From the NCBI RefSeq assembly GCF_025369935.1, contig NZ_CP104467.1, positions 3,851,001 to 3,915,000 of the forward strand: DNA of 64,000 bases. Direction: 5' to 3'. This DNA comes from Paenibacillus andongensis. Its GTDB lineage: Bacteria > Bacillota > Bacilli > Paenibacillales > NBRC-103111. This document shows positions 5,624 through 53,013 of the stretch, in pieces; positions within the stretch are counted from its first letter, which is position 1; each line of letters starts with the position of its first letter. The translations under genes were made by a program, and so were the position numbers. The notes beneath the pieces were generated by a model, which had not been told where the DNA came from, did not search any database, and saw only the letters and a program-made list of their open reading frames with translations.

Positions 5624-5703
5624 ATCTTCACACTCCTTTGTAAGTATCTGTATTAATTAAAAATTTCGATACAGGACTAATGATATCCTTGTTTTTCTAT
5701 AGC

Positions 5704-5781
5704 CTTATCCTGCCCTTTCGTAAATAAAGAGCTGCTCCGCAGCAGCCCTCAGTGTTTAACTATAGTTTCCGTTTGCGCAAT
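5704..5781. repeat. Intergenic element, full copy (degenerate)
   Basis: L box TTATCCTGCCCTTTCG, stem GAGCTGCT/AGCAGCCCTC region, R box TTAACTATAGTTTCCGTTTG. Confidence 0.7.
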
Positions 5782-5835
5782 ATAGTACAACAGGTGCCCG
5801 ATGAGAAACACATGCGTAGTGCATGGAGTAACAAG

Positions 5836-6684
5836 TTATTTTTTCTTAACCGGAATCCAAATCTCCCCAGACACATACCCTGCAGTTCCAAAATACATTT
5901 CAAAGCTTGGGCCTTCAACCTGTTCGTATTCCGATGTCGGAAACCATTCGGAATAAATCCTTCCCCATAACTTTATTAAATCACATTGCGGTTCCGGGAA
6001 AATCGCCCACGTTAGTGCCGGGACAGAAAGCTTTGTAAATCTCTCCGGAATTTCAAGTCCTTTTGGTAAGAAATAGCTCACCATGTATTTAAAAGATGTT
6101 CCAGTATGATCATATAAGGCAGCGTGCAAGATGGTGTTACTAAAGCGTCCCAGTAATCCATTCATCCCTTCAACACTTCCATCTACATCACATTGTTGAC
6201 GGAACTGAGCAACTTCAGCATATACTTTTTGGGGATCGGAATTGACCAGACCATATGCTCCAAACATCTCAAAAGGCCCTTTTGGTTCGATGCGGTAATT
6301 CATTTCGACATCTCCTTTTATTGAAATATGAAAGGACATTCGAGGATAGGCTTTTAGAGTAACACCTTTATCGCGCGCAGATATTGGCATTATCCCATGA
6401 AGATTCTTAAACGCCCGTGCAAACGCTTCTGGCGAATCATATCCATATTTCAAAGCTACATCAATAACCTTTGCATCTGTTGTCTGTAGTTCAAATGCTG
6501 CCAATGTCAACCGTCTACGTCGAATGTACTCAGATAACGATACCCCAGTAATAAAAGGAAACATTCGTTGAAAATGATAAGTAGAGCAACAGGCTCTCTG
6601 CGCTATTTCATCATATGAGATATTGTCCGCTAGGTTTGTTTCGATATATTCCATGGCGCTTTTCATCCTATCCAACCAATCCAT
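5836..6684 (-). CDS. AraC-family regulator with GyrI-like effector domain
   Basis: A 282-residue transcription factor. Residues about 5-105 form two helix-turn-helix units (YDEIAQRACCSTYHFQRMF and VIDVALKYGYDSPEAFARAF). Residues about 125-280 look like the GyrI/Bacterial_effector_binding domain that senses small hydrophobic or cationic ligands. ATG at 6684 is preferred over 6750 because GGGAGG lies 6 bases before it. Regulators of this type often control neighbouring detoxification genes, but none adjoins. Single-gene unit flanked by repeats. Confidence 0.88.
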   Translation of the reverse strand: MDWLDRMKSAMEYIETNLADNISYDEIAQRACCSTYHFQRMFPFITGVSLSEYIRRRRLTLAAFELQTTDAKVIDVALKYGYDSPEAFARAFKNLHGIMPISARDKGVTLKAYPRMSFHISIKGDVEMNYRIEPKGPFEMFGAYGLVNSDPQKVYAEVAQFRQQCDVDGSVEGMNGLLGRFSNTILHAALYDHTGTSFKYMVSYFLPKGLEIPERFTKLSVPALTWAIFPEPQCDLIKLWGRIYSEWFPTSEYEQVEGPSFEMYFGTAGYVSGEIWIPVKKK

Positions 6685-6809
6685 CGTTTTTCCTCCCTTC
6701 AAGATAAATTTTATTGCAGATAAAAAGTGAATACCGTGCATTTTCTGCACGAAAATGTCAGGATATCGATGATAACTATAATTCTCCTCTTATTGCTAAT
6801 AACATTTTA

Positions 6810-6904
6810 GCTATACTGTCCCCATAGCGTGGAAACGGCAGCCGATCGTCATGTGTTGGCTGCCGCGGTGTCTATATTAAGCTATCGTATCCGTTAGTTG
6901 AATA
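6810..6904. repeat. Intergenic element, full copy
   Basis: L box GCTATACTGTCCCCATAG, stem CGGCAGCCGA/TTGGCTGCCG, R box AAGCTATCGTATCCGTTAG. Confidence 0.8.
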
Positions 6905-6949
6905 ACTAAATTTCTTGTTTCCTGGGAAATGATGGTTCACATGTCAACA

Positions 6950-7468
6950 TTACTTTTTCAATATACCTATATATTCTTTCCAAGGCCCAATGTCCGCCCT
7001 GTATCTATCGGCCATTACCCGTACGATTTGAGCAATGTGCGCTAAATCATGAACAACCCAGGTAGAAAGTAATTCTCTTAACTTCACCACACCTAATCTA
7101 GGGTGTAAACCTGTCAATTCAAGATTCAATTCAGTTTCAATAAGAACCTTAAGTTTGGTTAAATTTTGTGTTCTAAGCGTTTTAAATTCAAGTAACTTTT
7201 GTTCAATCGATGACATTTCATTTAAATGAGAGTAGCGATCAAATGAGGGAAATGGTTTACTTTCACCTTCCTGAAGAATATATTCTAACCTTGGTATCCA
7301 AGTATCTTCCTCTAACTCAATGAGGTGTTCAATTACTTCAGAGACATTCCAGGTTCCTTCGCCTTCATTGCATTTCAACCATGTATCAGATATACCAGAT
7401 AAAAAAAACTCCAATGCTTGTGGTGTACGTTCCAGAACCTCAATAGCTTCTTTCATATTAAAATTCAT
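6950..7468 (-). CDS. DinB-family protein
   Basis: A 172-residue four-helix-bundle protein of the DinB/YfiT superfamily, cytoplasmic. The three expected metal-binding histidines can be placed: H in VIEHLIELE (near 50) and two in [12 protein letters not shown] (near 141-145). The family includes thiol-dependent transferases (bacillithiol S-transferase BstA-like), so a detoxification role is possible but unproven. ATG at 7468 follows AAAGGAGTAG. The upstream extension to 7546 has no such site. Single-gene unit. Confidence 0.85.
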
Positions 7469-7601
7469 ATAACTACTCCTTTCTATAATTAATCCCGATG
7501 TTTCGAAATTCGACCGTATGTTTTCGAACCTCACAAAATATACCAAAAGATATTGAACTATTCGCGAACGAATCGATATATACCTTTAAAGCTAATGAAC
7601 A

Positions 7602-7690
7602 AACCTGCTCGTTACTTCAATAAAAAAGGAACAGCTACCGGCTGAGGCAATCTGCTCCATTATTTGAACTATCGTTCTGCGTTAGCGGAA
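7602..7690. repeat. Intergenic element, full copy
   Basis: L box ACCTGCTCGTTACTTCAAT, imperfect stem around GGAACAGCTACCGG, R box GAACTATCGTTCTGCGTTAG ending 15 bases from the stop at 7705. Confidence 0.82.
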
Positions 7691-7704
7691 TCTCGGTTCT
7701 TAAT

Positions 7705-8043
7705 TTACTTTACTTTCATCGGGAAAAGTTCCGAAAAAGTCGTATACCAATCAGTTCGTTTGGATTTAATCAGTCCCAGTGCTTCTTTCAAAGCAGTCTC
7801 TGTCAGACTTCCTAACTGCGAATAGTCGACGATACTTCTTCTTATCCAAATATCTGCTAAAGATTCTCCTGCACTGGCTCTTATCATGTCATCGAATGAA
7901 GCGTCATTTGCTACTTTCATAAGAATTTGTATCACATCATCGTCATCAAATTTGGATAAATCCATAACAGCATCGTCAATTTCGTCGTCTCTTGAAGTAT
8001 CGTCATAAATAACCGATATCAATTTTTCTTTATCCGTCTTCAC
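7705..8043 (-). CDS. Hypothetical protein, paralogue of the gene at 2117-2449
   Basis: A 112-residue acidic helical protein nearly identical in its central 90 residues to the protein at 2117-2449. The GTG start at 8043, the AGAGGTGA site and the upstream TATAAT are all conserved between copies. Sequence similarity continues up to the L box of the intergenic element, so the whole unit appears to have been duplicated. A TTG start at 8061 is possible but would leave no room for a ribosome binding site after the promoter. Function unknown. Confidence 0.68.
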   Translation of the reverse strand: MKTDKEKLISVIYDDTSRDDEIDDAVMDLSKFDDDDVIQILMKVANDASFDDMIRASAGESLADIWIRRSIVDYSQLGSLTETALKEALGLIKSKRTDWYTTFSELFPMKVK

Positions 8044-8062
8044 CGCCGTCACCTCTGACAAA

Positions 8063-8068
8063 ATTATA
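8063..8068 (-). promoter_or_regulatory. Putative -10 box of the 7705-8043 gene
   Basis: TATAAT on the minus strand, at the same distance from the start codon as in the paralogue at 2469-2474. Confidence 0.45.
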
Positions 8069-8091
8069 CCGCATTTAAAGTAAGGTTGTTT

Positions 8092-8117
8092 GCACTAAGC
8101 TGCCCGTTATTTCAATA
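8092..8117. repeat. Intergenic element, L half only
   Basis: CACTAAGCTGCCCGTTATTT. No stem or R box follows before the stop at 8169. Confidence 0.65.
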
Positions 8118-8168
8118 AGAAAAAGTTTCATACGAGACAGCACATCCGTTTCATTTTACCGAGAATCA

Positions 8169-8507
8169 TCACTCTGGGACTTCAATATATTCCGATACTC
8201 TAGCTTTTAGTATTTCAATTAGTTCTTCATCCATATAACCATAATCATCAGGTATATCTAGGTTCCAGATCGCCTTTTCATTAAGTGTTGATCCAAATTT
8301 ATCTTTGAGTCGGCTCAAATGCTTTTTTTCCATTACAAATATGAGATCTGCCCAACCAATGTGTCCGCTTGTTACCTTAATCCTAGCACCATCCTCTGTC
8401 CCAGCAGACCTCACATCATAACCATTATATTTATGAAATATTTTTTCGGCCGTTGGGCTTCGCCATTTGTTTCTGCTGCATATAAACAGAACTTTTATGT
8501 TTATCAT
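8169..8507 (-). CDS. Low-molecular-weight protein tyrosine phosphatase-like protein
   Basis: A 112-residue phosphatase-fold protein. The P-loop CSRNKWRSP near residues 9-17 has the CX5R catalytic signature (Cys nucleophile, Arg), and LDIPDDY near residue 89 supplies the general-acid aspartate region. It is somewhat shorter than typical enzymes (about 140-160). Similar short proteins are annotated as LMW-PTP-like. ATG at 8507 gives MINIKVLFIC, the usual family start, but its ribosome binding site (AAGGGG) is very close. A GTG at 8525 is the alternative. Single-gene unit. Confidence 0.8.
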   Translation of the reverse strand: MINIKVLFICSRNKWRSPTAEKIFHKYNGYDVRSAGTEDGARIKVTSGHIGWADLIFVMEKKHLSRLKDKFGSTLNEKAIWNLDIPDDYGYMDEELIEILKARVSEYIEVPE

Positions 8508-8565
8508 CCCCTTATCAAATCCCACTGAAAATTAAACTGTAGGTTGGCATCAGCGTTTGCGTTAA

Positions 8566-8640
8566 TATACTCCGTTAGTTGAGCAAATAATCAAAAATAA
8601 TTTGGATGACAAACCCCCACTCGTTAGAATAGGGGTTTGT
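8566..8640. repeat. Intergenic element, box plus stem
   Basis: ATATACTCCGTTAGTTGAGC followed by the stem ACAAACCCC/GGGGTTTGT (8608-8640), a likely terminator. The far box is missing because the gene ending at 8644 starts right after the stem. Confidence 0.65.
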
Positions 8641-8643
8641 TAT

Positions 8644-9540
8644 TTAGGACTGATATTGCATGATCTCTTTTATTTCTTCACGAGTGCGTTCGTCATACTC
8701 CCAAGTACAAAGTTGAAGCACTTTTGAAATCATTTCTTGTGACATTGGTTCATTATTTGTGTTGTCTTCTCCGAATTCTTTTTTTATTGCTTGGAATGTT
8801 TGTTCGTTAAAAGTAACATTTACATCGTATATCCTAATTAAGGCATCAAGAATGGTTTCTTCTTGAAATGGTTTTACTACAAAGTCTCTCGCTCCTTGTC
8901 CAAGAATCTCTAAAATTACAGGCAAGAAGCCTCTAGCGGATAAAGCTAATATTTTTGCGTCTTTGTCGATCTCCTTTATTTTTTTTGTTGCAGTTATGCC
9001 GTCCATTATAGGCATATTAATATCCATGATAACAATGTCTGGTTGTTCATCAGCAAACTTGTCAACAGCTTGTTGACCGTTCTCCGCCGTAACAACGAAA
9101 TAACCATGCTTTTCTAAGATTTCACCTAGAATTTGTCGCATAAAAACTACATCATCAACAACCAAAATCTTCTTCGCACTCATTCCCTTTTCATCCCTTT
9201 CTATCTCATTTTTTCTTCGATTAACAGAAGCGATTGTCTTCTCTAGAGCGTTTTTTTCAATCTCAAGTTGTTGACCCCTTGCATTTAAGGCTAGTTTTAA
9301 CCTTTGTCTATCCAAATACGCTCCATTATGTAGTAGTTCCCTGATGGCATCTAAACTGAAACCATATTGCTTAAGTTCAATTATTAATAATAGTTGGCTA
9401 ACTTGCTCTTTTGAATAGTACCTGTAACGGTTACTCTCTTCAACGTGTACGGGCTTTAGTAAGCTAATTTCATCATAATACCTTAGTGCATCAACTGATG
9501 TTTTAACGATTTTCGATATTTCGCCAATTGTATACACCAA
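8644..9540 (-). CDS. MerR-type DNA-binding domain fused to a response-regulator receiver
   Basis: A 298-residue protein. Residues 1-70 are a MerR winged helix (YTIGEISKIVKTSVDALRYY, then RYRYYSKEQV). Residues about 75-115 form the MerR-like linker coiled coil. Residues about 122-240 are a CheY-like receiver with the acidic pair in VVDD, the phospho-acceptor Asp in IVIMDINMP, and Lys in FVVKPF. A 55-residue tail follows. This suggests a one-polypeptide, phosphorylation-controlled MerR switch. No kinase is adjacent. The start is TTG, or the following GTG, behind GGAGGGG. Confidence 0.85.
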   Translation of the reverse strand: MVYTIGEISKIVKTSVDALRYYDEISLLKPVHVEESNRYRYYSKEQVSQLLLIIELKQYGFSLDAIRELLHNGAYLDRQRLKLALNARGQQLEIEKNALEKTIASVNRRKNEIERDEKGMSAKKILVVDDVVFMRQILGEILEKHGYFVVTAENGQQAVDKFADEQPDIVIMDINMPIMDGITATKKIKEIDKDAKILALSARGFLPVILEILGQGARDFVVKPFQEETILDALIRIYDVNVTFNEQTFQAIKKEFGEDNTNNEPMSQEMISKVLQLCTWEYDERTREEIKEIMQYQS

Positions 9541-9693
9541 ACCCCTCCTTTCCGATATGTACCTCTGACAATGACTATGATAAACCCTCGGGTAACTCCA
9601 AGGTCAAGCAATGTTTCATATTTTTTATGATTTAGAAGGTTTCATTTCGTATCAAATTTTCCGAATGGCGACTTTAATAAATGGTACCATCCT

Positions 9694-9780
9694 ATGCTAA
9701 ACTGCCCGTTAGCGTAGTGAAGGGCTACCACGACGGCTGCCCTTTTGATATTGAAGTATAGTTCTCCCGTTAGCTCAATG
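9694..9780. repeat. Intergenic element, full copy
   Basis: L box ATGCTAAACTGCCCGTTAG, stem AAGGGCTACC/GGCTGCCCTT, R box GAAGTATAGTTCTCCCGTTAG. Confidence 0.85.
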
Positions 9781-9873
9781 ACCTAACTCTCCTTTATGAT
9801 TGGTTACCTTGATGGTCATAAGGGTGAAAATTGAGAAAGTGACTGTTCGTGGCTGCATTGGGACAGTAGCCCC

Positions 9874-9908
9874 AGCCCCCTTACGCTGATAGTCAAGCGG
9901 AAGGGGCT
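9874..9908. terminator. Stem-loop after the HxlR gene
   Basis: AGCCCCCTTACGC pairs with GCGGAAGGGGCT. It lies 25 bases beyond the HxlR stop codon. Between 9541 and 9932 only this and one repeat copy are seen. Confidence 0.6.
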
Positions 9909-9932
9909 TTCCCTTTTGGCGGGAATCCGAGG

Positions 9933-10280
9933 TCAATCGTCCGAAGAATGAGGATGCCGGCTTGCTCGTTCATTGTAAAGCTCTCCCCATTCTTTCATCA
10001 GCAAAATAATTGGGTTCAAGGTTTTACCAAATTCGGTTAGCGAGTATTCTACCTTTGGCGGCACCTGATCGTACGTTTTGCGCTCTATGATCCCTTCACG
10101 TTCGAGTTCCCGCAATTGCAAGGTAAGAATATGATGCGTGACCTGAGGGTAAATTCTGCGAAGCTCGCCGAACCGCTTCGTTCCGCTCATTAAGTGATAA
10201 AGAATCACCCCTTTCCACTTTCCACCAATAACATCAAACGTCGTTTCGACTGGACACTTTTTTTCTGGAGCATTTGCCAT
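9933..10280 (-). CDS. HxlR-family transcriptional regulator
   Basis: A 115-residue winged-helix regulator. The family hallmark Cys-Pro near the N-terminus (KKCPVETT) and the motif IGGKWKGVILYHLMSGTKRFGEL are present, followed by the wing around VPPKVEYSLTEFG. ATG at 10280 is preferred over 10298 because AGAGGGA lies 6-9 bases upstream. It is divergent from a short-chain dehydrogenase with about 130 bases between starts. By the usual logic of such pairs it probably represses that gene in response to aldehydes, quinones or redox stress (inference). Confidence 0.88.
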   Translation of the reverse strand: MANAPEKKCPVETTFDVIGGKWKGVILYHLMSGTKRFGELRRIYPQVTHHILTLQLRELEREGIIERKTYDQVPPKVEYSLTEFGKTLNPIILLMKEWGELYNERASRHPHSSDD

Positions 10281-10408
10281 CTCGTTATCCCTCTGCATAG
10301 TATTATTTTTGTTACTTGGTATTATTAATTTGCGTACTTTAAGTATATTACTAACTTAAATATAATGAAATAGCCGACGGCATCCAATATGTGAAGGGAA
10401 TGATTGCA

Positions 10409-11197
10409 ATGGGGATAGCGGAAGACATGAAGAGATTTGAGGGCCAGACAGCGATTGTCACTGGAGGCGGCACCGGAATGGGCCGTGCTGCAGCGCTAAG
10501 GCTCGGCAGGGAAGGCGCCAATGTCGTCATAGCGGGTCGACGAACAAAAGAGCTTCAAGAAGTTTATGAAGAAATTGTCTCTCAGGGAGGTAGGGCCCTC
10601 GCTGTTCAAACTGACGTTGCCGATCCTCGTCAGGTCGAAGCGCTTGTAAACAAGACGCTGGATGTGTTTGGAAGTCTGGATATGGCTTGGAACAACGCCG
10701 GCATTCTTGGTGCTTTCTCACCTGTACACAAACTATCCTTTGAAGATTTCGATACTCTGATGTCGGTCAATCTGCGTGGTGTGTTCGCCTGTCTAAAATA
10801 CGAGATCGCTGCAATGCTCGACCGTGGAATCCGTGGCTCGATCGTTAACACTTCTTCGTGGACAGCGCATGGGGCAATGCCGGGTACTTCAGGCTACGCA
10901 GCATCCAAGGGAGCACTCGATGCAATGATGAGAACCGTGGCGTTGGAGGTTGGTCCTAGCAACATTCGAGTTAACAATGTCAGTCCTGGAATGATTGCAA
11001 CCCCGATGTCGCAGGAGGTTCTAAGCGACGAGACTACGGCGCGTCCCTTCGTCAAGCAAACTCCCTTACAGCGGGTGGGCCAATCCGAAGACGTGGCGGA
11101 TGTCGTGGTCTGGCTTCTCTCTGACGACGCTCGTTTTGTTACTGGTCAGAGCATATTCGTAGATGGCGGTTACACTATCGGCGGATTACGTCCGTGA
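10409..11197 (+). CDS. Short-chain dehydrogenase/reductase
   Basis: A classical SDR oxidoreductase of 262 residues, cytoplasmic, NAD(P)-dependent. TGGGTGMG near residue 20 is the dinucleotide-binding motif, NNAG lies near 95, the catalytic Ser is in TSSWT near 147, and YAASK near 161 holds the Tyr and Lys. It is the only ordinary gene on the plus strand in the first 18 kb. The start is uncertain: ATG at 10409 has GAAGGGA upstream, while a GTG at 10391 and an ATG at 10400 are in frame. It is higher in GC than its neighbours. The partner regulator is divergent. The substrate cannot be assigned. Confidence 0.9.
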   Translation: MGIAEDMKRFEGQTAIVTGGGTGMGRAAALRLGREGANVVIAGRRTKELQEVYEEIVSQGGRALAVQTDVADPRQVEALVNKTLDVFGSLDMAWNNAGILGAFSPVHKLSFEDFDTLMSVNLRGVFACLKYEIAAMLDRGIRGSIVNTSSWTAHGAMPGTSGYAASKGALDAMMRTVALEVGPSNIRVNNVSPGMIATPMSQEVLSDETTARPFVKQTPLQRVGQSEDVADVVVWLLSDDARFVTGQSIFVDGGYTIGGLRP

Positions 11198-11220
11198 CTG
11201 AACGAAGCGATATATTGAAG

Positions 11221-11261
11221 CCAAACGGCAGCCGAATGATTAATTCCCGGCTGCCGTTTGG
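11221..11261 (+). terminator. Terminator of the SDR gene
   Basis: A 14-base perfect stem, CCAAACGGCAGCCG with CGGCTGCCGTTTGG, 24 bases after the stop. Its stem resembles that of the intergenic element, but the flanking boxes are absent. Confidence 0.8.
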
Positions 11262-11434
11262 TCGTTCATAGATCAATATACACCGTGGCTGTTGTACAAG
11301 TAGTCGATGGACTGTGTGTTTTCTTACAAACAGCACTAACTAAATTGTGATGCCCGTTGAATCAACTTCTAGTCTCTAACGTCTAAACCTTCTTGTTCTC
11401 TAACACCTAAACTACAATTGAGAACAACTGAAGA

Positions 11435-11454
11435 AAACTGCCCTTTAGCGTAAC
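11435..11454. repeat. Intergenic element, L half only
   Basis: AAACTGCCCTTTAGCGTAAC. The rest of the element is not recognisable before the stop at 11495. Confidence 0.55.
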
Positions 11455-11494
11455 GAGACTGCTGATTCATATTAGCATCCACATTTTCAGGTTA

Positions 11495-12205
11495 TTAACC
11501 AAAGAAGGAATAGTACACTAGACCAGCAACTATAACATAGTACAGATCTTCGATCCAAATGGAAGTAGGCCGATGCGATACGTTAATATTCATATCACGG
11601 TCCCATGTAATCTGTCGCAGTTTATGCTTCAATGTTCGATAGGCAGACGCATACGTAATTAAGTAGATTGCTGGAACCCCAGCGGCCTCACCACGCCACC
11701 AGACAAGAAAACTCCTCTTGCAAGCTTGACTAAAAGAAAGTCTAGTGCCATCTGGATTTCTTACTCTTACCCCAAATACAAATTTGCCTGGTGTTGTTCC
11801 CACAAACGACAGAAACAGAGATTCGAAAGGTATCCAGACCAGCAAAAGAATCATTGTCAATACGTACCCCCCTGTCCCTGATATTAAAAATGGCTCGTAC
11901 ACGATCCAATCTATAACTGGAGAAACAAAAGGGACGGAAGGATTATCCAATAATGATTGAAATAAAGAGACAAATAATAAAGAATCCAAATATCTAGCCC
12001 ATAATCGGAGCCATGGTCTAACCTTCGCTTTTTCTTCATTCCATTCAAATTGCGTATATATTTCGGCTACTAACCATTCCCCAAGCTTGTGTTTCCTTAC
12101 AAGCGTACGTTTGTTAATGTGCCCTGCCCTTATTAGTTCCGACATTTCCTCCGTAGTAAAAGGACCGTAGATATCCTTTTCATTTTTATAGAACCATTCA
12201 ATCAA
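11495..12205 (-). CDS. GYF_2-RDD family membrane protein
   Basis: A 236-residue protein. Residues 1-55 match the GYF_2 type (WFYKNEKDIYGPFTTEEM, then W44), a small peptide-binding domain. Residues about 62-236 are an RDD domain with the conserved Arg and Asp in WARYLDSLL, the GTTPGKFVFGVRVRN loop, and four to five membrane helices. RDD proteins have been linked to ion or osmolyte exchange in some bacteria, but here the function is unknown. The TTG start lies 11 bases after a GAGG site. Single-gene unit. Confidence 0.82.
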   Translation of the reverse strand: MIEWFYKNEKDIYGPFTTEEMSELIRAGHINKRTLVRKHKLGEWLVAEIYTQFEWNEEKAKVRPWLRLWARYLDSLLFVSLFQSLLDNPSVPFVSPVIDWIVYEPFLISGTGGYVLTMILLLVWIPFESLFLSFVGTTPGKFVFGVRVRNPDGTRLSFSQACKRSFLVWWRGEAAGVPAIYLITYASAYRTLKHKLRQITWDRDMNINVSHRPTSIWIEDLYYVIVAGLVYYSFFG

Positions 12206-12321
12206 TTAGATGGGCCTCGTTTCTCTACCGTGAATATTTTGCACTGCTCATATAGTGAAACACTATTTTTCTTGCATAACCACAGGTAAATATATACTTT
12301 TCAAAAGGTATATCTTATTGA

Positions 12322-12414
12322 AGTATACTGCCAGTTAACGTAATGAAGCTGCCGATCGTGCCGGCAGCTTCGTCCATTGATGTTTTATTCAACTATAGTA
12401 TCCGTTAGCTCAAT
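12322..12414. repeat. Intergenic element, full copy
   Basis: L box AAGTATACTGCCAGTTAACG, stem GAAGCTGCCG/CGGCAGCTTC, R box CAACTATAGTATCCGTTAG. Confidence 0.88.
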
Positions 12415-12454
12415 ATTAAAAGTGCATCTAACCAAGTAAACCACGGTACCACGA

Positions 12455-13312
12455 TTATATGCCCATACAGTAAGCCAGCCTTTTGGCTTCTAGAGGCAAA
12501 CCGAGCAAAATAAGTTGATCGCAGATCGCCCGGATAACTTTGTCATCATCCACTCCTTGGACCTGACAGTCACGGATAAAGCCAAATAACCCTGCTTGCT
12601 GCGCGCTAGCAATATAGGCCTTTAAATGTTCGACATTCCGGCCCGGGATTTCCTTCATATGCCATGGGTGAGGAGCCGGTCTATTCAGGCCATCAACTGA
12701 TATGCCCCGTGCCGTGACCCCCAATCCATCAGATGTGGGCAAGATCAGTTCGTTCCAGCGTGCTCGCCGTACCTCTTGTATGTAGGCATATCCGTCAGGG
12801 AGGGGCTGAAAGCCGAAGCACTGCATAGCGAAGTCACGCACCTCGATCTTCTGCCGTCGCCACTTCTTCCTGTCGAAATACTCGTTCTCTTCCTCGTCGT
12901 CCTCATCCTCCTGGTCTCTCAAATAGGACAGGTATTGTTCCTCGGATTCAAAATTGTTCAGCAAAAGCCCTTCATGATCAGAAAAATGAAGTAAGAAAAA
13001 ATCTCTTATATTGTTGGCGACTATTTTCGTGCAATTACCAAAATCCATAGGGTCAACGCGAATGATCGGCGCCAAACTTAAATCAGTCACAGAACCGAAA
13101 TCTGTCAGGAGGGAAAAATGAATGCCATCCATGCCTGTACGCGCGAACATAATCGCATCAGCTGGAGAACTTCTGTACCCGCCGTTGTCACACGGATCGA
13201 ATTGCAGAAAATAGCCTGTCGGCGTCTCCAAGTAAGGAAATTTCTGCTTGATCTCCTTCTCCCATGCCATGATCTCATCCAACAATGGCGGTATTTCGTA
13301 GGAATGTACCAT
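12455..13312 (-). CDS. Hypothetical protein, possibly SUKH/SMI1-KNR4-like
   Basis: A 285-residue soluble protein. The stretch around residues 50-90 (DAIMFARTGMDGIHFSLLTDFG, quoted as landmark blocks DAIMFARTG and GIHFSLLTDFG) recalls bacterial SMI1/KNR4-type proteins, many of which are toxin immunity proteins. The resemblance is from memory and weak. A very acidic segment follows near residues 130-143 (EDEDDEEENE), then a second domain. No toxin gene is adjacent. An AAGGAGAAG site precedes the ATG. Single-gene unit. Confidence 0.65.
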   Translation of the reverse strand: MVHSYEIPPLLDEIMAWEKEIKQKFPYLETPTGYFLQFDPCDNGGYRSSPADAIMFARTGMDGIHFSLLTDFGSVTDLSLAPIIRVDPMDFGNCTKIVANNIRDFFLLHFSDHEGLLLNNFESEEQYLSYLRDQEDEDDEEENEYFDRKKWRRQKIEVRDFAMQCFGFQPLPDGYAYIQEVRRARWNELILPTSDGLGVTARGISVDGLNRPAPHPWHMKEIPGRNVEHLKAYIASAQQAGLFGFIRDCQVQGVDDDKVIRAICDQLILLGLPLEAKRLAYCMGI

Positions 13313-13431
13313 AATGCTCTCTTCTCCTTCAACCAGTCTATTCTGTTAATTATATTTAATGTAAATTTCGACCCCTCAACGAGGCCCTGCCATCAGGATC
13401 AATGCCTCATGACGTCTGGACACCTACCAAA

Positions 13432-13509
13432 GTAACCTCCCGTTACTTTAATACACAAAAGAAGAGGCCGCGAATCAAGCCCCTCAACTATAGTTCTCTG
13501 TTAGCATAA
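13432..13509. repeat. Intergenic element, full copy with a different stem
   Basis: L box TAACCTCCCGTTACTTTAAT, weak stem AAGAGGCC/GCCCCTC, R box CAACTATAGTTCTCTGTTAG. Confidence 0.78.
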
Positions 13510-18298: not shown

Positions 18299-18383
18299 AC
18301 TATCCTGCCCGTTCGCAACAAGACTGCCGTTCAATTTCGCGGCAGCCTGTGTTGTTTGTAATTGAGCTATAGTTCACCGTTAG
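18299..18383. repeat. Intergenic element, full copy, R box interrupted by IS110 copy 1
   Basis: L box CACTATCCTGCCCGTTCG, stem GACTGCCG/CGGCAGCC, R box GAGCTATAGTTCACCGTTAG cut after CCGTTAG. The missing CGTAA resumes at 20141. Confidence 0.85.
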
Positions 18384-18497
18384 ATTCCTGTAGATGGATA
18401 AATTTCAGCTTTGTAAAAAAAGGAGCGCCTCTGTACGATGGAAGTACGCTACGGGTCAAAAGCCCTTTAATTCCATCATCCAGGAGGACGCTCTACT

Positions 18498-19763
18498 ATG
18501 AAGTTTAAATCACAAGATAAGCAAAATCAACTCATTGAAAACATTACCTTTAATCATATTGTTGTTGGTGTAGACATTGCTCAGGAGGCCCATGTTGCCA
18601 GAGCGGTTAACTTTCGAGGTGTCGCTCTCGGTAATCCTTTAGTGTTTAGTAATGACGAGGATGGATTCAAGTCCCTCGACCGTTGGATTCGCGACTTGTT
18701 AGCTTCATTTAAATTATCTCAAGTTATCGTTGGTATGGAACCCACTGGCCATTACTGGCTAAGCCTTGCCGGGTGGCTCAAAAACAAAGCCATTGAAGCC
18801 GTACTTGTTAATCCTCACCTAGTTAAAAAGAATAAAGAAAACCGCGACAATACACGCTATAAAAGCGACAAAAAAGATGCTTTAGTTATTGCCGACATGG
18901 TGAAAAACGGCTACTACTCCCCTGTCCGCTTCCATTCTTCCGAATACGCGGAGCTGCGAGTGCTTATGGCTAACCGAGAAACGGTCGTTAAACGACTCGT
19001 AAGTGCCGTTAACCAGATCCACCGCTGGGTCGACATTGTCTTCCCTGAACTGAGACAAGTCTTTAAAATCTTAACTTGCAAGGGTGCATTGTTAACCCTT
19101 CGGCTTTTTCCGCTCCCGGCTGAGCTATGTAAACTAAGTCCTGACGATGTAATTAAAGGATGGCAGAAATCAATGAAGCGGCATTCTGGTGTGCGTAGAG
19201 CTCATCTACTCATCGATCTTGCCAAGAAAACTATTGGATCTAAGCAGGCAACACATGCTTACAAACTCCATCTAGAGCAGCTCCTTGAGGAGCATGACTT
19301 AGCCACTAAACAACTGCAGAGGATAGAAAAAGAAGCCAAAGACGTTGTTGAACGTATCCCCTATTCAGGAAAAATGCTTGCCATTACTGGAATAAGTCCA
19401 ATTGCTCTAGCTGGTGTTTTAGGAGAGTCTGGGGATCTTAGAGGTTATGCGCACGGGAACGCTCTACTCCGTCACGCAGGACTTAATATAACCGAAGCAA
19501 GCTCTGGGAAATGGAAGGGACAACTGAAGCTCAGCAAACGAGGTCGTCCACGTCTGCGTCACTTTCTTTATTTAATTACGATGTGCATGGTCATGAGTAA
19601 CCAAGAATTTAAAGCCATACACCACTACAATGTTCAGGTGAAAAAGCTTAAAAAGATGAAGTCTATCATGAAGCTATGTGGAAAGCTAGCTCGACTCTTA
19701 GTAGGAATGGCTCGTAGTGATGAAGCTTACAACCGCGATAAAATCTTTGTATTAGCAGCTTAA
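18498..19763 (+). CDS. IS110-family transposase (DEDD type)
   Basis: A 421-residue recombinase. The RuvC-like N-terminal domain carries the DEDD residues D26 (VVGVDIAQ), E81 (VGMEPTGHYW) and D124/D127 (SDKKDA). The C-terminal Transposase_20 domain contains ISPIALAGVLGESGDL and the serine-bearing TEASSGKWKG near residue 330. A CCAGGAGG site precedes the ATG. In IS110 elements the enzyme works with a bridge RNA to join donor and target. Residue 121 is Tyr here and Ser in the other copy. Confidence 0.95.
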   Translation: MKFKSQDKQNQLIENITFNHIVVGVDIAQEAHVARAVNFRGVALGNPLVFSNDEDGFKSLDRWIRDLLASFKLSQVIVGMEPTGHYWLSLAGWLKNKAIEAVLVNPHLVKKNKENRDNTRYKSDKKDALVIADMVKNGYYSPVRFHSSEYAELRVLMANRETVVKRLVSAVNQIHRWVDIVFPELRQVFKILTCKGALLTLRLFPLPAELCKLSPDDVIKGWQKSMKRHSGVRRAHLLIDLAKKTIGSKQATHAYKLHLEQLLEEHDLATKQLQRIEKEAKDVVERIPYSGKMLAITGISPIALAGVLGESGDLRGYAHGNALLRHAGLNITEASSGKWKGQLKLSKRGRPRLRHFLYLITMCMVMSNQEFKAIHHYNVQVKKLKKMKSIMKLCGKLARLLVGMARSDEAYNRDKIFVLAA

Positions 19764-20138
19764 AATAAACCTTATCTCACGCAAGTTGGCGTATTCGCAG
19801 GAGACAAAGAAAGCACGGAGTATCGGGATACATTACGCAAAAAGGCTCTGACCTGTTCCGTTAGAAAGACCGACCTCCACCCCTTAGATAGATGTAACGA
19901 AGGAATGATAGGGCGCTTGACCCGTTGAGACATGGGAGTGAAAATCGCTAAGGGCATCGTGGAGAATACGTGCAGCATTTGGAATGAATTGGGTGATTCA
20001 ACTCCACCTCTGTTCCCGCATGCCTTTTTAACGACACATCCTAATATGTCTCGCTATCTTTCATTCATCATTGATATCTAAAGGATGAAATCCTGCGAAT
20101 AGACGAGCTTGCGTGAGGAAATCAAATCATACCGAGGG
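19764..20138 (+). ncRNA. Candidate bridge/guide RNA region of IS110 copy 1
   Basis: The right non-coding end contains TTACGC (19833-19838), complementary to the right half of the target (GCGTAA), and TTCCGTTAG (19856-19864), identical to its left half. They are 17-19 bases apart, as expected of a target-binding loop. AGGAAT (19901-19906) complements the IS left end ATTCCT and may belong to the donor loop; this match is weaker. RNA boundaries cannot be fixed by eye. Confidence 0.5.
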
Positions 20139-20167
20139 AGCGTAACGAAGGTATTGATTGCCAGAGT

Positions 20168-20638: not shown

Positions 20639-20740
20639 CCGCTATACTGCCCGTTAGTTGAGAAAAGGCAACCGATTCACTACGGTCGGTTGCCTTTTCT
20701 TGTTGTTAATGAACTATCTATTTTCTCCGTTAGTTGAATA
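20639..20740. repeat. Intergenic element, full copy
   Basis: L box GCTATACTGCCCGTTAGTTG, long stem AAAAGGCAACCG/CGGTTGCCTTTT, R box GAACTATCTATTTTCTCCG then TTAG. Confidence 0.85.
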
Positions 20741-31788: not shown

Positions 31789-31902
31789 ATTCCTGTAGAT
31801 GGATAAATTTCAGCTTTGTAAAAAAAGGAGCACCTCTGTACGATGGAAGTACGCTACGGGTCAAAAGCCCTTTAATTCCATCATCCAGGAGGACGCTCTA
31901 CT

Positions 31903-33168
31903 ATGAAGTTTAAATCACAAGATAAGCAAAATCAACTCATTGAAAACATTACCTTTAATCATATTGTTGTTGGTGTAGACATTGCTCAGGAGGCCCATGT
32001 TGCCAGAGCGGTTAACTTTCGAGGTGTCGCTCTCGGTAATCCTTTAGTGTTTAGTAATGACGAGGATGGATTCAAGTCCCTCGACCGTTGGATTCGCGAC
32101 TTGTTAGCTTCATTTAAATTATCTCAAGTTATCGTTGGTATGGAACCCACTGGCCATTACTGGCTAAGCCTTGCCGGGTGGCTCAAAAACAAAGCCATTG
32201 AAGCCGTACTTGTTAATCCTCACCTAGTTAAAAAGAATAAAGAAAACCGCGACAATACACGCTCTAAAAGCGACAAAAAAGATGCTTTAGTTATTGCCGA
32301 CATGGTGAAAAACGGCTACTACTCCCCTGTCCGCTTCCATTCTTCCGAATACGCGGAGCTGCGAGTGCTTATGGCTAACCGAGAAACGGTCGTTAAACGA
32401 CTCGTAAGTGCCGTTAACCAGATCCACCGCTGGGTCGACATTGTCTTCCCTGAACTGAGACAAGTCTTTAAAATCTTAACTTGCAAGGGTGCATTGTTAA
32501 CCCTTCGGCTTTTTCCGCTCCCGGCTGAGCTATGTAAACTAAGTCCTGACGATGTAATTAAAGGATGGCAGAAATCAATGAAGCGGCATTCTGGTGTGCG
32601 TAGAGCTCATCTACTCATCGATCTTGCCAAGAAAACTATTGGATCTAAGCAGGCAACACATGCTTACAAACTCCATCTAGAGCAGCTCCTTGAGGAGCAT
32701 GACTTAGCCACTAAACAACTGCAGAGGATAGAAAAAGAAGCCAAAGACGTTGTTGAACGTATCCCCTATTCAGGAAAAATGCTTGCCATTACTGGAATAA
32801 GTCCAATTGCTCTAGCTGGTGTTTTAGGAGAGTCTGGGGATCTTAGAGGTTATGCGCACGGGAACGCTCTACTCCGTCACGCAGGACTTAATATAACCGA
32901 AGCAAGCTCTGGGAAATGGAAGGGACAACTGAAGCTCAGCAAACGAGGTCGTCCACGTCTGCGTCACTTTCTTTATTTAATTACGATGTGCATGGTCATG
33001 AGTAACCAAGAATTTAAAGCCATACACCACTACAATGTTCAGGTGAAAAAGCTTAAAAAGATGAAGTCTATCATGAAGCTATGTGGAAAGCTAGCTCGAC
33101 TCTTAGTAGGAATGGCTCGTAGTGATGAAGCTTACAACCGCGATAAAATCTTTGTATTAGCAGCTTAA
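31903..33168 (+). CDS. IS110-family transposase (DEDD type), copy 2
   Basis: A 421-residue recombinase identical to the protein at 18498-19763 except Ser121 for Tyr, three residues before catalytic D124. All DEDD residues and the C-terminal serine region are intact, so both copies look active. Confidence 0.95.
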   Translation: MKFKSQDKQNQLIENITFNHIVVGVDIAQEAHVARAVNFRGVALGNPLVFSNDEDGFKSLDRWIRDLLASFKLSQVIVGMEPTGHYWLSLAGWLKNKAIEAVLVNPHLVKKNKENRDNTRSKSDKKDALVIADMVKNGYYSPVRFHSSEYAELRVLMANRETVVKRLVSAVNQIHRWVDIVFPELRQVFKILTCKGALLTLRLFPLPAELCKLSPDDVIKGWQKSMKRHSGVRRAHLLIDLAKKTIGSKQATHAYKLHLEQLLEEHDLATKQLQRIEKEAKDVVERIPYSGKMLAITGISPIALAGVLGESGDLRGYAHGNALLRHAGLNITEASSGKWKGQLKLSKRGRPRLRHFLYLITMCMVMSNQEFKAIHHYNVQVKKLKKMKSIMKLCGKLARLLVGMARSDEAYNRDKIFVLAA

Positions 33169-33543
33169 AATAAACCTTATCTCACGCAAGTTGGCGTATT
33201 CGCAGGAGACAAAGAAAGCACGGAGTATCGGGATACATTACGCAAAAAGGCTCTGACCTGTTCCGTTAGAAAGACCGACCTCCACCCCTTAGATAGATGT
33301 AACGAAGGAATGATAGGGCGCTTGACCCGTTGAGACATGGGAGTGAAAATCGCTAAGGGCATCGTGGAGAATACGTGCAGCATTTGGAATGAATTGGGTG
33401 ATTCAACTCCACCTCTGTTCCCGCATGCCTTTTTAACGACACATCCTAATATGTCTCGCTATCTTTCATTCATCATTGATATCTAAAGGATGAAATCCTG
33501 CGAATAGACGAGCTTGCGTGAGGAAATCAAATCATACCGAGGG
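33169..33543 (+). ncRNA. Candidate bridge/guide RNA region of IS110 copy 2
   Basis: Same layout as in copy 1: TTACGC at 33238-33243 and TTCCGTTAG at 33261-33269, matching the two halves of the target in this interval. Confidence 0.5.
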
Positions 33544-33639
33544 AGCGTAATGACCTCACCTGACTTGACTTGTCATCTATGGTACGGTTCACCGTAATGT
33601 ATTTAAACACAAAGTACAATTTGAACGTAAGACATCAGT

Positions 33640-34559: not shown

Positions 34560-34596
34560 ATTTTATAACTTTCTTACACGCATGCTATGTCACTAA

Positions 34597-36549
34597 GTAG
34601 AGTAAAGGGCTGGAGATCCCAGCCCCTCCTCATCAAACCGTACATGCAGTTTTCCCGCATACGGCTTTCCGACGTTCTTCATCCAGGGCAGTACGGTTTT
34701 ACCCAAGTGCATAATGTTTTCAGTCCTGTACGTTGAAGCAGAATATGCATTTCTGACCAATTCCGCTTGCGCTTCCTATGTTTGTTATTCCAGAACAGTC
34801 TCAATCTCCTCAGGATGTACCAGTCCACTTTCGCAAGGAAACGGTTTGCCATACTTCGATCTACATCCAGATGAGCGTAGAAGTTACGCCACCCTTGGAT
34901 CATAGGATTCAGTAGCCCAACCATTTGCTTTAACGGCCAGTTTAACCGTCCTCGGGATGCCGTTTCTTCGTTCAAACGAGTACGCATCTTCTTCATCGCT
35001 TTCTTCGATGGAAAGCTTCGAAGTCTATACATAACCCCCTTTTTATGGAGATGCGGCATCTTCCTATGGTGAAAGCCAAGAAAGTCAAACCCATCCTGAT
35101 TCTTCCATAGACATACTAACTTTGATTTGGATGTGTTCATGGTCAACTCTAGTTTTCCGAAGATAGCCTTGAGTACATGAATAGCTTCGAGTGCCTGCGG
35201 TTTGTACCGGCATAGAATGACAAGATCGTCTGCATACCTTACTAGCTTGCCCAGATGAGAGAATTGTTTCTCCCATATCGTATCGAGGTAGTTGAGATAA
35301 ATGTTGGCGAGAAGAGGAGATATTACACCGCCTTGTGGGCTACCGATCTCCGTTTTGTGCCATACGCCATCCTTCATAACGCCTGCTTCAAGCCACTGTC
35401 TAATTAACTTTAGAATGCGCCTGTCGCAGATGCGTTCTTCGACCAGTTTCATCAGCTTGCTGTGGGAGATATTATCGAAGTAGCCTGTTATATCTACGTC
35501 GACCACCCAGTTGATGACGCCCCAATTGATGCTTTCCCGGATGCTCTTTATAGCGTGGTGAGCCGACCGTTTGGGGCGAAATCCGTAAGAGCAATCTTTA
35601 AAATCTGATTCGAATATACCTTCGATCACCAGTTTGGTTGCCATCTGAACAGTCCGGTCACGGACTGTTGGAATACCCAAGGGACGTGCCTTTCCGTCCG
35701 GCTTCGGAATCTCTTTCCGTTTGACCGGAGAAGGTCGGTATTCCCCATTCATTAGCTGTTGCCTGATCTCTTCGATGAAGGATTCTTCGCCAATCTCTCG
35801 GACGATGAATTCGATTGATTGTCCATCGATGCCGGCACTTCCACGATTGGTTTTCACTCTTCTCCATGCTTCTTGCAGGATATCTTTCCGGAATACTTTG
35901 TCGTACAGCGCATGAAACTTACGCTTTGGGTTCTCCTTAGCCGCAAGATAGAGGGTATTTTGGAGTTGTCGAGCGTTTTCATTGGTGGCGTTAGCCGTGT
36001 ATTCGGCATTCACTTGCTCTTACCTCCTTGATATCCCGTAAACGAAGTGGGGTATTGCCTTTCGGCGCCCTTCCCTCCCCGGGGTTATGTTGTCCGCCGG
36101 ATCATTGGTAGTATGGCCCCCTCCGACTCCCTTCCCGCAGCTCGCCATTTCACCTTTGGGGCTTATAGGTTTGCTTGTTACGAAAAAAAAAAAACTTCGT
36201 GCGGGGGAGGGTCTCCCTAGTTCCAAACACAACTGTCTCTGCATGCCGATCCCTTTACACCGGAGGGTTCTTTTGCGCTGCATTCCAAGATCTTTGCGCG
36301 TTCCATGGCCTTCGCCGGGGCAGTCGTGGCTCGGCTCCCTCTTATCCCTCCCGGGTTCAGTTTCACGATGCGGTAGGATTCATTTTCATTACGGCCTGCA
36401 GATTTGCTTCATCGCGCGAGGCGCGACTTTTCACAGGGCTTCAGCCGCCGGATTTCGCCGACGTCTGCCTGCTAGCTACGGGGCGGCTTGGACCTTACCC
36501 CGACTGAACTTGCATCAGTAAGTTGTGCCTAGCTTGGCTAGGCGCGCAC
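34597..36549 (-). mobile_element. Group II intron, copy 1
   Basis: About 1953 bases on the minus strand. The 5' end is GTGCGCGCC (36549 downward). Domain V is the 33-base stem at 34635-34667 with AGCCGTATGCGG and GTACGGTT, and domain VI follows with a bulged A before CTCTAC at the 3' end. The two copies and the uninterrupted repeat fix the junctions. Joining the flanks gives CACTAA|TGCCCGTTAC, an ordinary L box. It lies downstream of a terminator stem on its own strand, as group IIC introns do. Confidence 0.9.
34679..36013 (-). CDS. ltrA: Group II intron reverse transcriptase/maturase
   Basis: A 444-residue intron-encoded protein. The reverse transcriptase domain covers about 75-330, with GSPQGGVISPLLANI at 225-239 and the catalytic YADD at 260-263. 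The maturase (X) domain follows, with LKQMVGLLNPMIQGWRNFY near 385. No HNH endonuclease domain follows, in line with terminator-targeting bacterial class C introns. It splices the intron RNA and copies it into new sites. Identical in copy 2. Confidence 0.95.
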   Translation of the reverse strand: MNAEYTANATNENARQLQNTLYLAAKENPKRKFHALYDKVFRKDILQEAWRRVKTNRGSAGIDGQSIEFIVREIGEESFIEEIRQQLMNGEYRPSPVKRKEIPKPDGKARPLGIPTVRDRTVQMATKLVIEGIFESDFKDCSYGFRPKRSAHHAIKSIRESINWGVINWVVDVDITGYFDNISHSKLMKLVEERICDRRILKLIRQWLEAGVMKDGVWHKTEIGSPQGGVISPLLANIYLNYLDTIWEKQFSHLGKLVRYADDLVILCRYKPQALEAIHVLKAIFGKLELTMNTSKSKLVCLWKNQDGFDFLGFHHRKMPHLHKKGVMYRLRSFPSKKAMKKMRTRLNEETASRGRLNWPLKQMVGLLNPMIQGWRNFYAHLDVDRSMANRFLAKVDWYILRRLRLFWNNKHRKRKRNWSEMHILLQRTGLKTLCTWVKPYCPG

Positions 36550-36635
36550 TGCCCGTTACTTCAACGGACAACGGCAGCCGATCGTGTATCGGCTGCCGTC
36601 ATGTCGTGCTGAACTATAGTTCCCTGATGCTTAAC
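36550..36635. repeat. Intergenic element, L box interrupted by group II intron copy 1
   Basis: TGCCCGTTACTTCAAC begins directly at the intron junction. Stem ACGGCAGCCGAT/ATCGGCTGCCGT, R box GAACTATAGTTCCCTGATG (degenerate). Confidence 0.85.
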
Positions 36636-50904: not shown

Positions 50905-50988
50905 AAACACTCACCTCCTAGGTGCTTAATAAGCATCATTGATTAGTAGACGTCAAAGGGGGCATGATTGTTCCAATAAATATTGGAA

Positions 50989-52939: not shown

Positions 52940-53013
52940 TGTCCGTTACTTGAATGAACAAAAAGAGGAGCTTGCGAAGAAAGCCCCTCAACTATCGTTT
53001 TCCGTTAGCGTAG
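52940..53013. repeat. Intergenic element, L box interrupted by group II intron copy 2
   Basis: TGTCCGTTACTTGAATG at the junction, stem AGAGGAGCTT/AAGCCCCTC, R box CAACTATCGTTTTCCGTTAG. Confidence 0.85.

Follow-up and report, generated by a model that had tools for sequence, protein, structure and literature searches.

A predicted bridge RNA of an IS110/IS1111-family insertion sequence with guides matching sites of a putative integron-like cassette array in Paenibacillus andongensis

Integrons carry attC sites with the core GTTRRRY and are hosts to group II introns, and members of the IS1111 superfamily (the IS1111-attC group) reportedly occur in cassette sites in a single orientation. According to the sections of PMC11187229 used here, IS1111 elements encode transposases of 330–350 a.a, have 11–13 bp inverted repeats with extensions of 7 (or 6) bp on the left and 3 bp on the right, and place their RNA downstream of tnp, with the complement of the top strand preceding the copy of the left target half. 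In the same sections, the transposases of the IS110 subgroup measure 395–455 a.a, some IS110-type elements have a downstream non-coding region (two deep-branching ones with inverted repeats), and two IS1111 elements, ISKpn4 and ISPst6, hit the attC sites of integron cassettes. As for the hosts of such sites, the part of the IntegronFinder 2.0 report used here finds the Firmicutes to have one complete integron, plus a small number of attC clusters (PMC9024848).

The window (the whole 64,000-nt stretch of DNA analysed here) contains two copies of an IS110/IS1111-family insertion sequence (IS; Table 1), which are 99% identical (1795 of 1808 aligned bases, a bit of flank included). The alignment of the two copies gives junctions reading CCGTT-AG/ATTCCTGTAG on the left and ACCGAGGG-AG/CGTAA on the right, with one AG per junction. 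The genome (7.64 Mb) holds four near-identical copies in total, three on the + strand at 3.87–3.94 Mb and one on the − strand at 1.32 Mb, besides four weaker matches that are mostly broken. The transposase displayed PF01548 (DEDD_Tnp_IS110) and PF02371 (Transposase_20) domains and scored above the cut-off of the NCBIfam model NF033542 (IS110 RNA-guided transposase), and a PDB search with E up to 0.01 returned the IS621 transposase as the sole match (E = 3.3e-7). Its length is conserved at 421–424 a.a in 11 full-length relatives of the element family.

Table 1. Positions of the IS, its predicted bridge RNA and guides, its target, and related features (window coordinates unless a locus is named).
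Feature	Position	Strand	Basis or remark
IS copy 1, IS110/IS1111 family	18384..20140	+	two-copy alignment, one AG core counted in
IS copy 2	31789-33545		two-copy alignment
DEDD transposase/recombinase tnp, 421 a.a	18498..19763	+	domain and family models
Left element end (donor) ATTCCT	18384..18389	+	two-copy alignment
Right element end (donor) ACCGAGGGAG with core AG	20131..20140	+	two-copy alignment
Subterminal inverted repeat, 12 bp, left copy, ~44 bp inside left end	18428..18439	+	10/12 match
Subterminal inverted repeat, right copy, 3 bp from right end	20126..20137	+	
Bridge RNA (seekRNA-type)	19776..20117	+	46-copy alignment, structure counts
Terminal helix of RNA, long	19776-19803 / 20091-20117	+	outermost 10 bp read directly from sequence
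Target-binding loop	19823..19873	+	stem 19823-19826/19870-19873; inner hairpin 19843-19845/19852-19854
Right target guide (5′ guide) TTACGC, complement of GCGTAA	19833..19838	+	covaries with right flank
Left target guide (3′ guide) TTCCGTTAG, equal to left half with AG core	19856..19864	+	covaries with left flank
Donor-binding loop	19883..19952	+	stems 19883-19887/19948-19952, 19891-19893/19944-19946
Donor-loop inner hairpin	19911-19913/19921-19923	+	
Right donor guide AGGAAT, complement of left end ATTCCT	19901..19906	+	direct reading
Left donor guide TTGAG-ACAT-GGGAG	19925..19938	+	direct reading
Left half of target CCGTTAG	18377..18383	+	two-copy alignment
Right half of target GCGTAA	20140..20145	+	two-copy alignment; also without IS in related genomes
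Host site hit by IS copy 1, attC-like: left palindromic site, hairpin, right palindromic site	18300..18383	+	
Intact attC-like element near insertion	20642..20733	+	two CCGTTAG 76 bp apart, strong hairpin, fold z −4.3
Xer-like recombinase	L108:17968-18807 (genome 3517968-3518807)	+	
Second Xer-like recombinase	L095:7393-8088	−	

The subterminal inverted repeat, of the CCTCGGTACGAT type, matched at no fewer than 10 of its 12 positions in 46 of 72 elements, compared to 21 of 1440 shuffles, and was weaker in the other 26. The left copy (10/12 at +46) was at one point regarded as a mere part of a leader hairpin, a candidate reading that was dropped once conservation across elements was seen. Near the left end of the element, we separately noted by eye a potential hairpin (GAGCGCCTC / GAGGACGCTC, nt. 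18423–18493) that covers the ribosome-binding site of tnp and would silence read-through translation of this gene. A promoter scan of the circle junction gave no convincing candidate, with scores of 6–8 of 12 in the 12 elements printed.

Relatives were collected by a scan of genome contigs, from which we took the best 80 loci among the matches listed, hosted by Paenibacillus, Cohnella, Brevibacillus, Bacillus, and related genera; with the two window copies, these make up 82 element rows. Both guides were found by pattern in 77 rows. The remaining five (L015, L025, L034, L055, and L071) were dropped as their guide pattern was unmatched by the regular expression, although the alignment does show guides fitting their flanks in L025 and L055, and in L015 the RNA is lost from ~80 nt past the stop codon onward. 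Guide–flank counts use the 66 of these 77 rows in which both flanks are of sufficient length and contain no N, excluding L022, L024, L027, L038, L043, L050, L061, L066, L078, L078b, and L083 (end missing, short flank, or N). A separate set of 78 insertion-site rows includes L078b (flank all N) and both L071 and L071b, the second match in the contig of L071. For the RNA, 46 loci were prepared and 46 copies aligned (45 relatives and the window), omitting L065 as shorter; its closed RNA region measures 304 nt, compared to 329–342 nt in the other 45 of the 46 loci measured.

Downstream of tnp, this alignment revealed a conserved RNA of ~340 nt with eight helices. A long terminal helix encloses a target loop and a donor loop; the former is closed by one stem and the latter by more than one, and both contain an inner hairpin. 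Its 43 pairs are standard in 97.7% of 1976 cells over the 46 copies, with compensatory changes in 14 pairs, and sliding the partners by 1–3 columns reduced pairing to 27–45%. Changes on both sides of a pair were seen in 118 cells, compared to 42.6 in shuffles (0 of 500 shuffles as high), and affect three of the four pairs of the target-loop stem; further pair types were no more numerous than in shuffles (32 vs. 34.1). RNAalifold alone agreed on the main stems and prefers another hairpin in the donor loop. The inner hairpin of the donor loop shows no variation among the aligned copies. Both of its sides differ, by eye, in relatives from Priestia and Anoxybacillus (transposase identity of 36% and 32%), which retain CGAAGGAATG...GAGACATGGGAG downstream of tnp (also by eye). 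A search of the RNA region against Rfam gave no match at the gathering score nor at E up to 1. The initial annotation had proposed a candidate bridge RNA here, for which a conserved structured RNA was to be looked for; such an RNA is present.

The two target guides are found in the first loop, separated by 17 nt (fewer than 20 had been claimed), and direct reading confirmed the positions of TTACGC, TTCCGTTAG, and AGGAAT in Table 1, as well as the same guide pair in copy 2. For each element, we extracted the two guides (6 nt for the 5′ one) together with the left and right flanks, and compared the match of each guide to its own flank with that over 20,000 swaps of flanks. Across the 66 insertions from the best 80 loci and the window copies, own-flank matches averaged 5.39 of 6 positions for the right guide, compared to 4.25 with swapped flanks (sd 0.10; highest of 20,000 swaps 4.65), and 6.98 of 8 for the left guide, compared to 5.58 (highest 6.09). 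In six other registers, the right guide matched just 1.2–2.0 of 6; a 6-mer alone is weak evidence within 375 nt, and it is this register contrast over 66 insertions that argues against a chance placement. Since the swaps ignore kinship, the safer number comes from one element per guide pair (n = 25), which gave the same result, with a perfect right match in 17 elements, compared to an average of 2.6 and a maximum of 9 in the swaps.

The covariation can be seen in individual relatives, where the right guide and flank have changed together to TTGTGC/GCACAA (L059), TTGTCC/GGACAA (L074), TTTCGC/GCGAAA (L067), and TTATAC/GTATAA (L072); in L074, the left guide reads TTCCCGCAG and the flank likewise TTCCCGCAG. 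These four loci bear on two other explanations. The first, that the conserved region serves tnp only as a structured 3′ UTR or in a regulatory role, with guide matches reflecting similar host sites, would draw on the GTTAG common to most targets, which makes part of the match constant (hence the 4.25 of 6 for swapped flanks), yet flanks change where guides change, and we consider it very improbable. The second, that the transposase reads the DNA directly, or that end-site homology sets the target, with the RNA merely assembling the protein, appears even less credible: although neither the left half of the target nor the ends of the element vary much among the closest relatives, the transposases of the same four loci (62–72% identical to that of the window) have different guides and sites that match those guides. 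Guides and targets changing together, with few misfits, thus favour the RNA-guided reading put forward in the initial annotation.

The misfits are as follows. Right-guide matches among the 66 were 6/6 in 39, 5/6 in 16, 4/6 in nine, and 3/6 in two, and left-guide matches were 8/8 in 17, 7/8 in 38, 6/8 in eight, and lower in three, which places a right match of at most 4/6 in 11 insertions and a left match of at most 5/8 in three. The worst fits were L082 (3/6 right, 2/8 left), L014 (right 3/6), L063 (left 4/8), and L080 (4/6 right, 5/8 left); L083, outside the 66 because of Ns, has a left match of 2/8. Of the four copies in the genome that contains the window, two have their right guide matched at 6/6, one at 5/6, and one at 4/6. 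In hosts of the Bacillus group (upstream flanks of L056, L068, L070, L071, L076, and L085), the elements were noted in CTAACGGGGCAGGTTAG-like sites, which resemble the left palindromic site on the opposite strand, and their guides have changed to match.

The second loop is complementary to the element's own ends, with AGGAAT facing ATTCCT at the left end and the GGGAG of the left donor guide equal to the right end; the pairing of this left donor guide is probably interrupted. AGGAAT had been suggested to mark the donor loop, in line with its complementarity and its conservation, given that AAGGAAT is retained in nearly all rows printed and (by eye) in the relatives with 36%- and 32%-identical transposases. 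Donor guides and ends are nearly constant, which leaves complementarity and conservation, rather than covariation, as the support for the donor loop. In the proposed mechanism, the RNA would be transcribed and bind the DEDD transposase. Loop 1 would pair both target strands, TTACGC with the right top strand and TTCCGTTAG with the left bottom strand through AG, and loop 2 would pair with the ends of the element once joined, AGGAAT facing the left end and GGGAG the right one. The transposase would then exchange strands at the AG, leaving one AG per junction. The conserved structure, the guide–target covariation, the guide–end complementarity, the IS-free sites (below), and the exact boundaries are the basis on which we hold that the region very probably encodes a bridge RNA (seekRNA) of an IS110/IS1111-family IS, whose guides would target a site in an apparently integron-like cassette array.

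The target belongs to an oriented family of sites. CCGTTAG occurs 27 times on the + strand of the window (two being the guides themselves) and never on the − strand, compared to 4.4 in shuffles for both strands together. The sites are paired around a variable hairpin, each an imperfect palindrome (CTATCG-TTCTC-CGTTAG), with one or two weak cases among the 20 paired-site elements of the genome printed. An approximate 20-mer scan of the window gave 11 sites on the + strand and one on the − strand, fewer than the 27 exact CCGTTAG, and a scan of the genome with a 20-base pattern (up to three mismatches) gave 43 places, compared to six for the reversed-pattern control. These cluster by strand, with 20 of 20 on + at 3.834–3.978 Mb, 10 of 10 on − at 3.478–3.514 Mb, and four of four on − at 2.339–2.354 Mb. 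The sign of the GC skew switches between 3.81–3.83 and 3.83–3.85 Mb, so that the orientation of the arrays follows the replication arm, with single places such as +3199856, +3463531, and −5425577 as exceptions. The common direction of the sites in the array would explain why the three IS copies within it share their orientation. Such sites were present in all 30 genomes of the genus searched, the window's included (5–127 each with up to two mismatches; control 0–2), and most multi-site contigs listed (G001–G005) have their sites on one strand. The CTA palindrome partner accompanies 43 of the 78 insertion sites of the IS family (shuffled mean 6.1, highest 13). When 16 attC-like elements were folded as single sequences, the z-scores were mixed, ranging from −5.6 to +0.6, and the hairpin claim therefore rests on the strong-stem elements and the architecture, not on every copy.

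Several features of the array itself were noted in passing. The array covers window positions 1–54000 (3.834–3.978 Mb of the genome). Of the 66 ORFs of the window that do not overlap and reach 80 a.a, 59 are on the − strand; a cassette gene at 5836–6750 (−) matches Pfam Cass2 (‘integron-associated effector binding protein’); and a 300-nt direct repeat (2128–2427 and 7722–8021, 91% identity) is probably a cassette gene family. Two group II introns, 99.7% identical over the shared stretch (34595–36571 and 50987–52961, −), have an identical insertion point in an attC-like element, immediately past the hairpin, and are reminiscent of group IIC-attC introns.

To examine exchange between genomes, a 7.8-kb stretch (5700–13500) was searched in the 30 genomes, counting alignments of at least 300 nt and at least 80% identity. 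Among the loci compared, all 16 long matches from other genomes fell within one inter-site unit or ended in its flanking sites, and 18 of 32 match edges lay within 20 nt of a site, in stretches that make up 11% of the region, the remaining edges being internal to units. Five loci from three other genomes (G012, G026, and G027) have the right-hand flank of IS copy 1 with no IS beside it. The match covers the full 196 nt at 96–97% in two of them and only ~70 nt at 91–93% in three, and at each locus a different upstream hairpin is joined to this flank at the site. The IS-free site reads GTTAGCGTAACG at four of the five loci, and GTTGCGTAACG, without the AG, at L176. It could be argued that the target is no cassette recombination site but a REP- or terminator-like repeat of the ordinary, oriented kind, given that many elements have a G+C-rich hairpin, some with T runs, that only 18 of the 32 edges are close to a site, and that ISPa11 of the IS1111 family is reported in REP sequences in the sections used of PMC11187229. 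The confinement of every long match to one unit, the excess of edges near sites over their 11% share, and the five different hairpins make this explanation unlikely, and we instead read the target array as an integron-like system, a reading drawn from sequence comparison. The initial annotation had described the target as an intergenic element; its two halves are as given there, but it looks like a joint of a gene-cassette array and not a passive repeat.

A candidate enzyme for such an exchange is at hand, as two Xer-like tyrosine recombinases are encoded in the genome, one in or near each of its two largest arrays (Table 1). Relatives of the one at L108:17968-18807 occur in 21 of the 30 genomes (E up to 1e-30), some broken and that of G015 distant, and 12 of 20 loci examined have a CTAGCGTTC..CGTTAG site on the other strand, 66–85 bp before the recombinase start. 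For none of the nine NCBIfam models matched did this protein reach the cut-off (91 bits vs. 265 for the integron integrase model TIGR02249), and no IntI-class integrase was found at the arrays, the recombinase there being Xer-like. On balance, these comparisons lead us to favour an independent integron-like cassette system in Bacillales, in which an Xer-derived recombinase and an attI-like site would serve attC-like arrays, and in which a guide-RNA IS lineage and group II introns would live, the guides tracking the host site.

Such a system is apparently undescribed in Bacillales. In open-licence literature, which makes for weak evidence, we found no description of integrons or arrays of this kind in Paenibacillus, Bacillota, or Bacillales, nor (again weak evidence of novelty) of the element group or related bridge RNAs, and a text search with the site sequence listed matches that look unrelated by title. 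The presence of sites in 30 of 30 genomes of one Bacillales genus contrasts with the paucity reported for Firmicutes in the part used of PMC9024848, and, if the sites work as integrons do, they would constitute an overlooked gene-shuffling system of soil bacteria. The target may thus matter more than the element, a guide-RNA lineage specialised in cassette sites in parallel to IS1111 elements at attC (PMC11187229, sections used here). The 25 distinct guide pairs on one scaffold, with 66 insertions, are also a natural series of reprogrammed bridge RNAs, each pair with its own site, useful for deriving guide rules beyond the elements studied so far.

Like integron arrays, the arrays here have oriented two-palindrome repeats around a variable hairpin (two simple sites each), genes between them, units shared singly between genomes, and group II introns within sites. 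Unlike in integrons, the sites read GTTAG[CT] (GTTAGCT, GTTAGTT, and GTTAGCG) rather than GTTRRRY, an IntI-class integrase was not found at the arrays, and, on our reading of the exchange point, the genes would run opposite to the usual orientation. Whereas the IS1111-attC group hits integron attC, as far as the sections used describe it, the sites here belong to Bacillales arrays with an Xer-like recombinase.

The IS resembles the IS1111 seekRNA elements ISEc11, ISKpn4, ISPst6, and ISPa11 (Siddiquee 2024, PMC11187229, sections used here) in its PF01548 and PF02371 domains, downstream RNA, guide order with the top-strand complement first, subterminal inverted repeat in the 11–13 bp range, 3-bp right extension, and single orientation in the target. 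The IS1111 placement of the initial annotation holds in these respects (RNA position and guide order), but the element is a non-standard IS1111, with a transposase of 421–424 a.a rather than 330–350 a.a and a left repeat ~44 bp inside the end rather than 7 (or 6) bp. The closed RNA region, a predicted span of ~340 nt, compares to 70–100 nt for the mature seekRNA of IS1111 in the same sections. Of the features of IS110 sensu stricto, it has the transposase length (421 a.a, within 395–455 a.a) and lacks an upstream RNA with the left guide first. Like the IS621 bridge RNA (Durrant 2024, PMC11208160, in the part used), the RNA has two loops with two guides each for opposite strands, a core dinucleotide within the left guide, and a DEDD transposase in its element; unlike it, the RNA is on the other side of tnp, the guide order is reversed in both loops, and the core is AG instead of CT. 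In a tree of 24 proteins with IS4321 (IS1111), ISEc21, and IS116 (IS110), long branches meet with deep supports of 72–90 (L027 being represented by 62 a.a only). In its layout, the element thus follows IS1111 in guide order and RNA position, but its transposase is as long as those of IS110 and its inverted repeat is shifted. The IS110-type exceptions with a downstream region or inverted repeats (PMC11187229), likened here by their description in the sections used and not by sequence, offer precedents for this mixed layout, which suggests that the IS110 and IS1111 groups are not cleanly separated.
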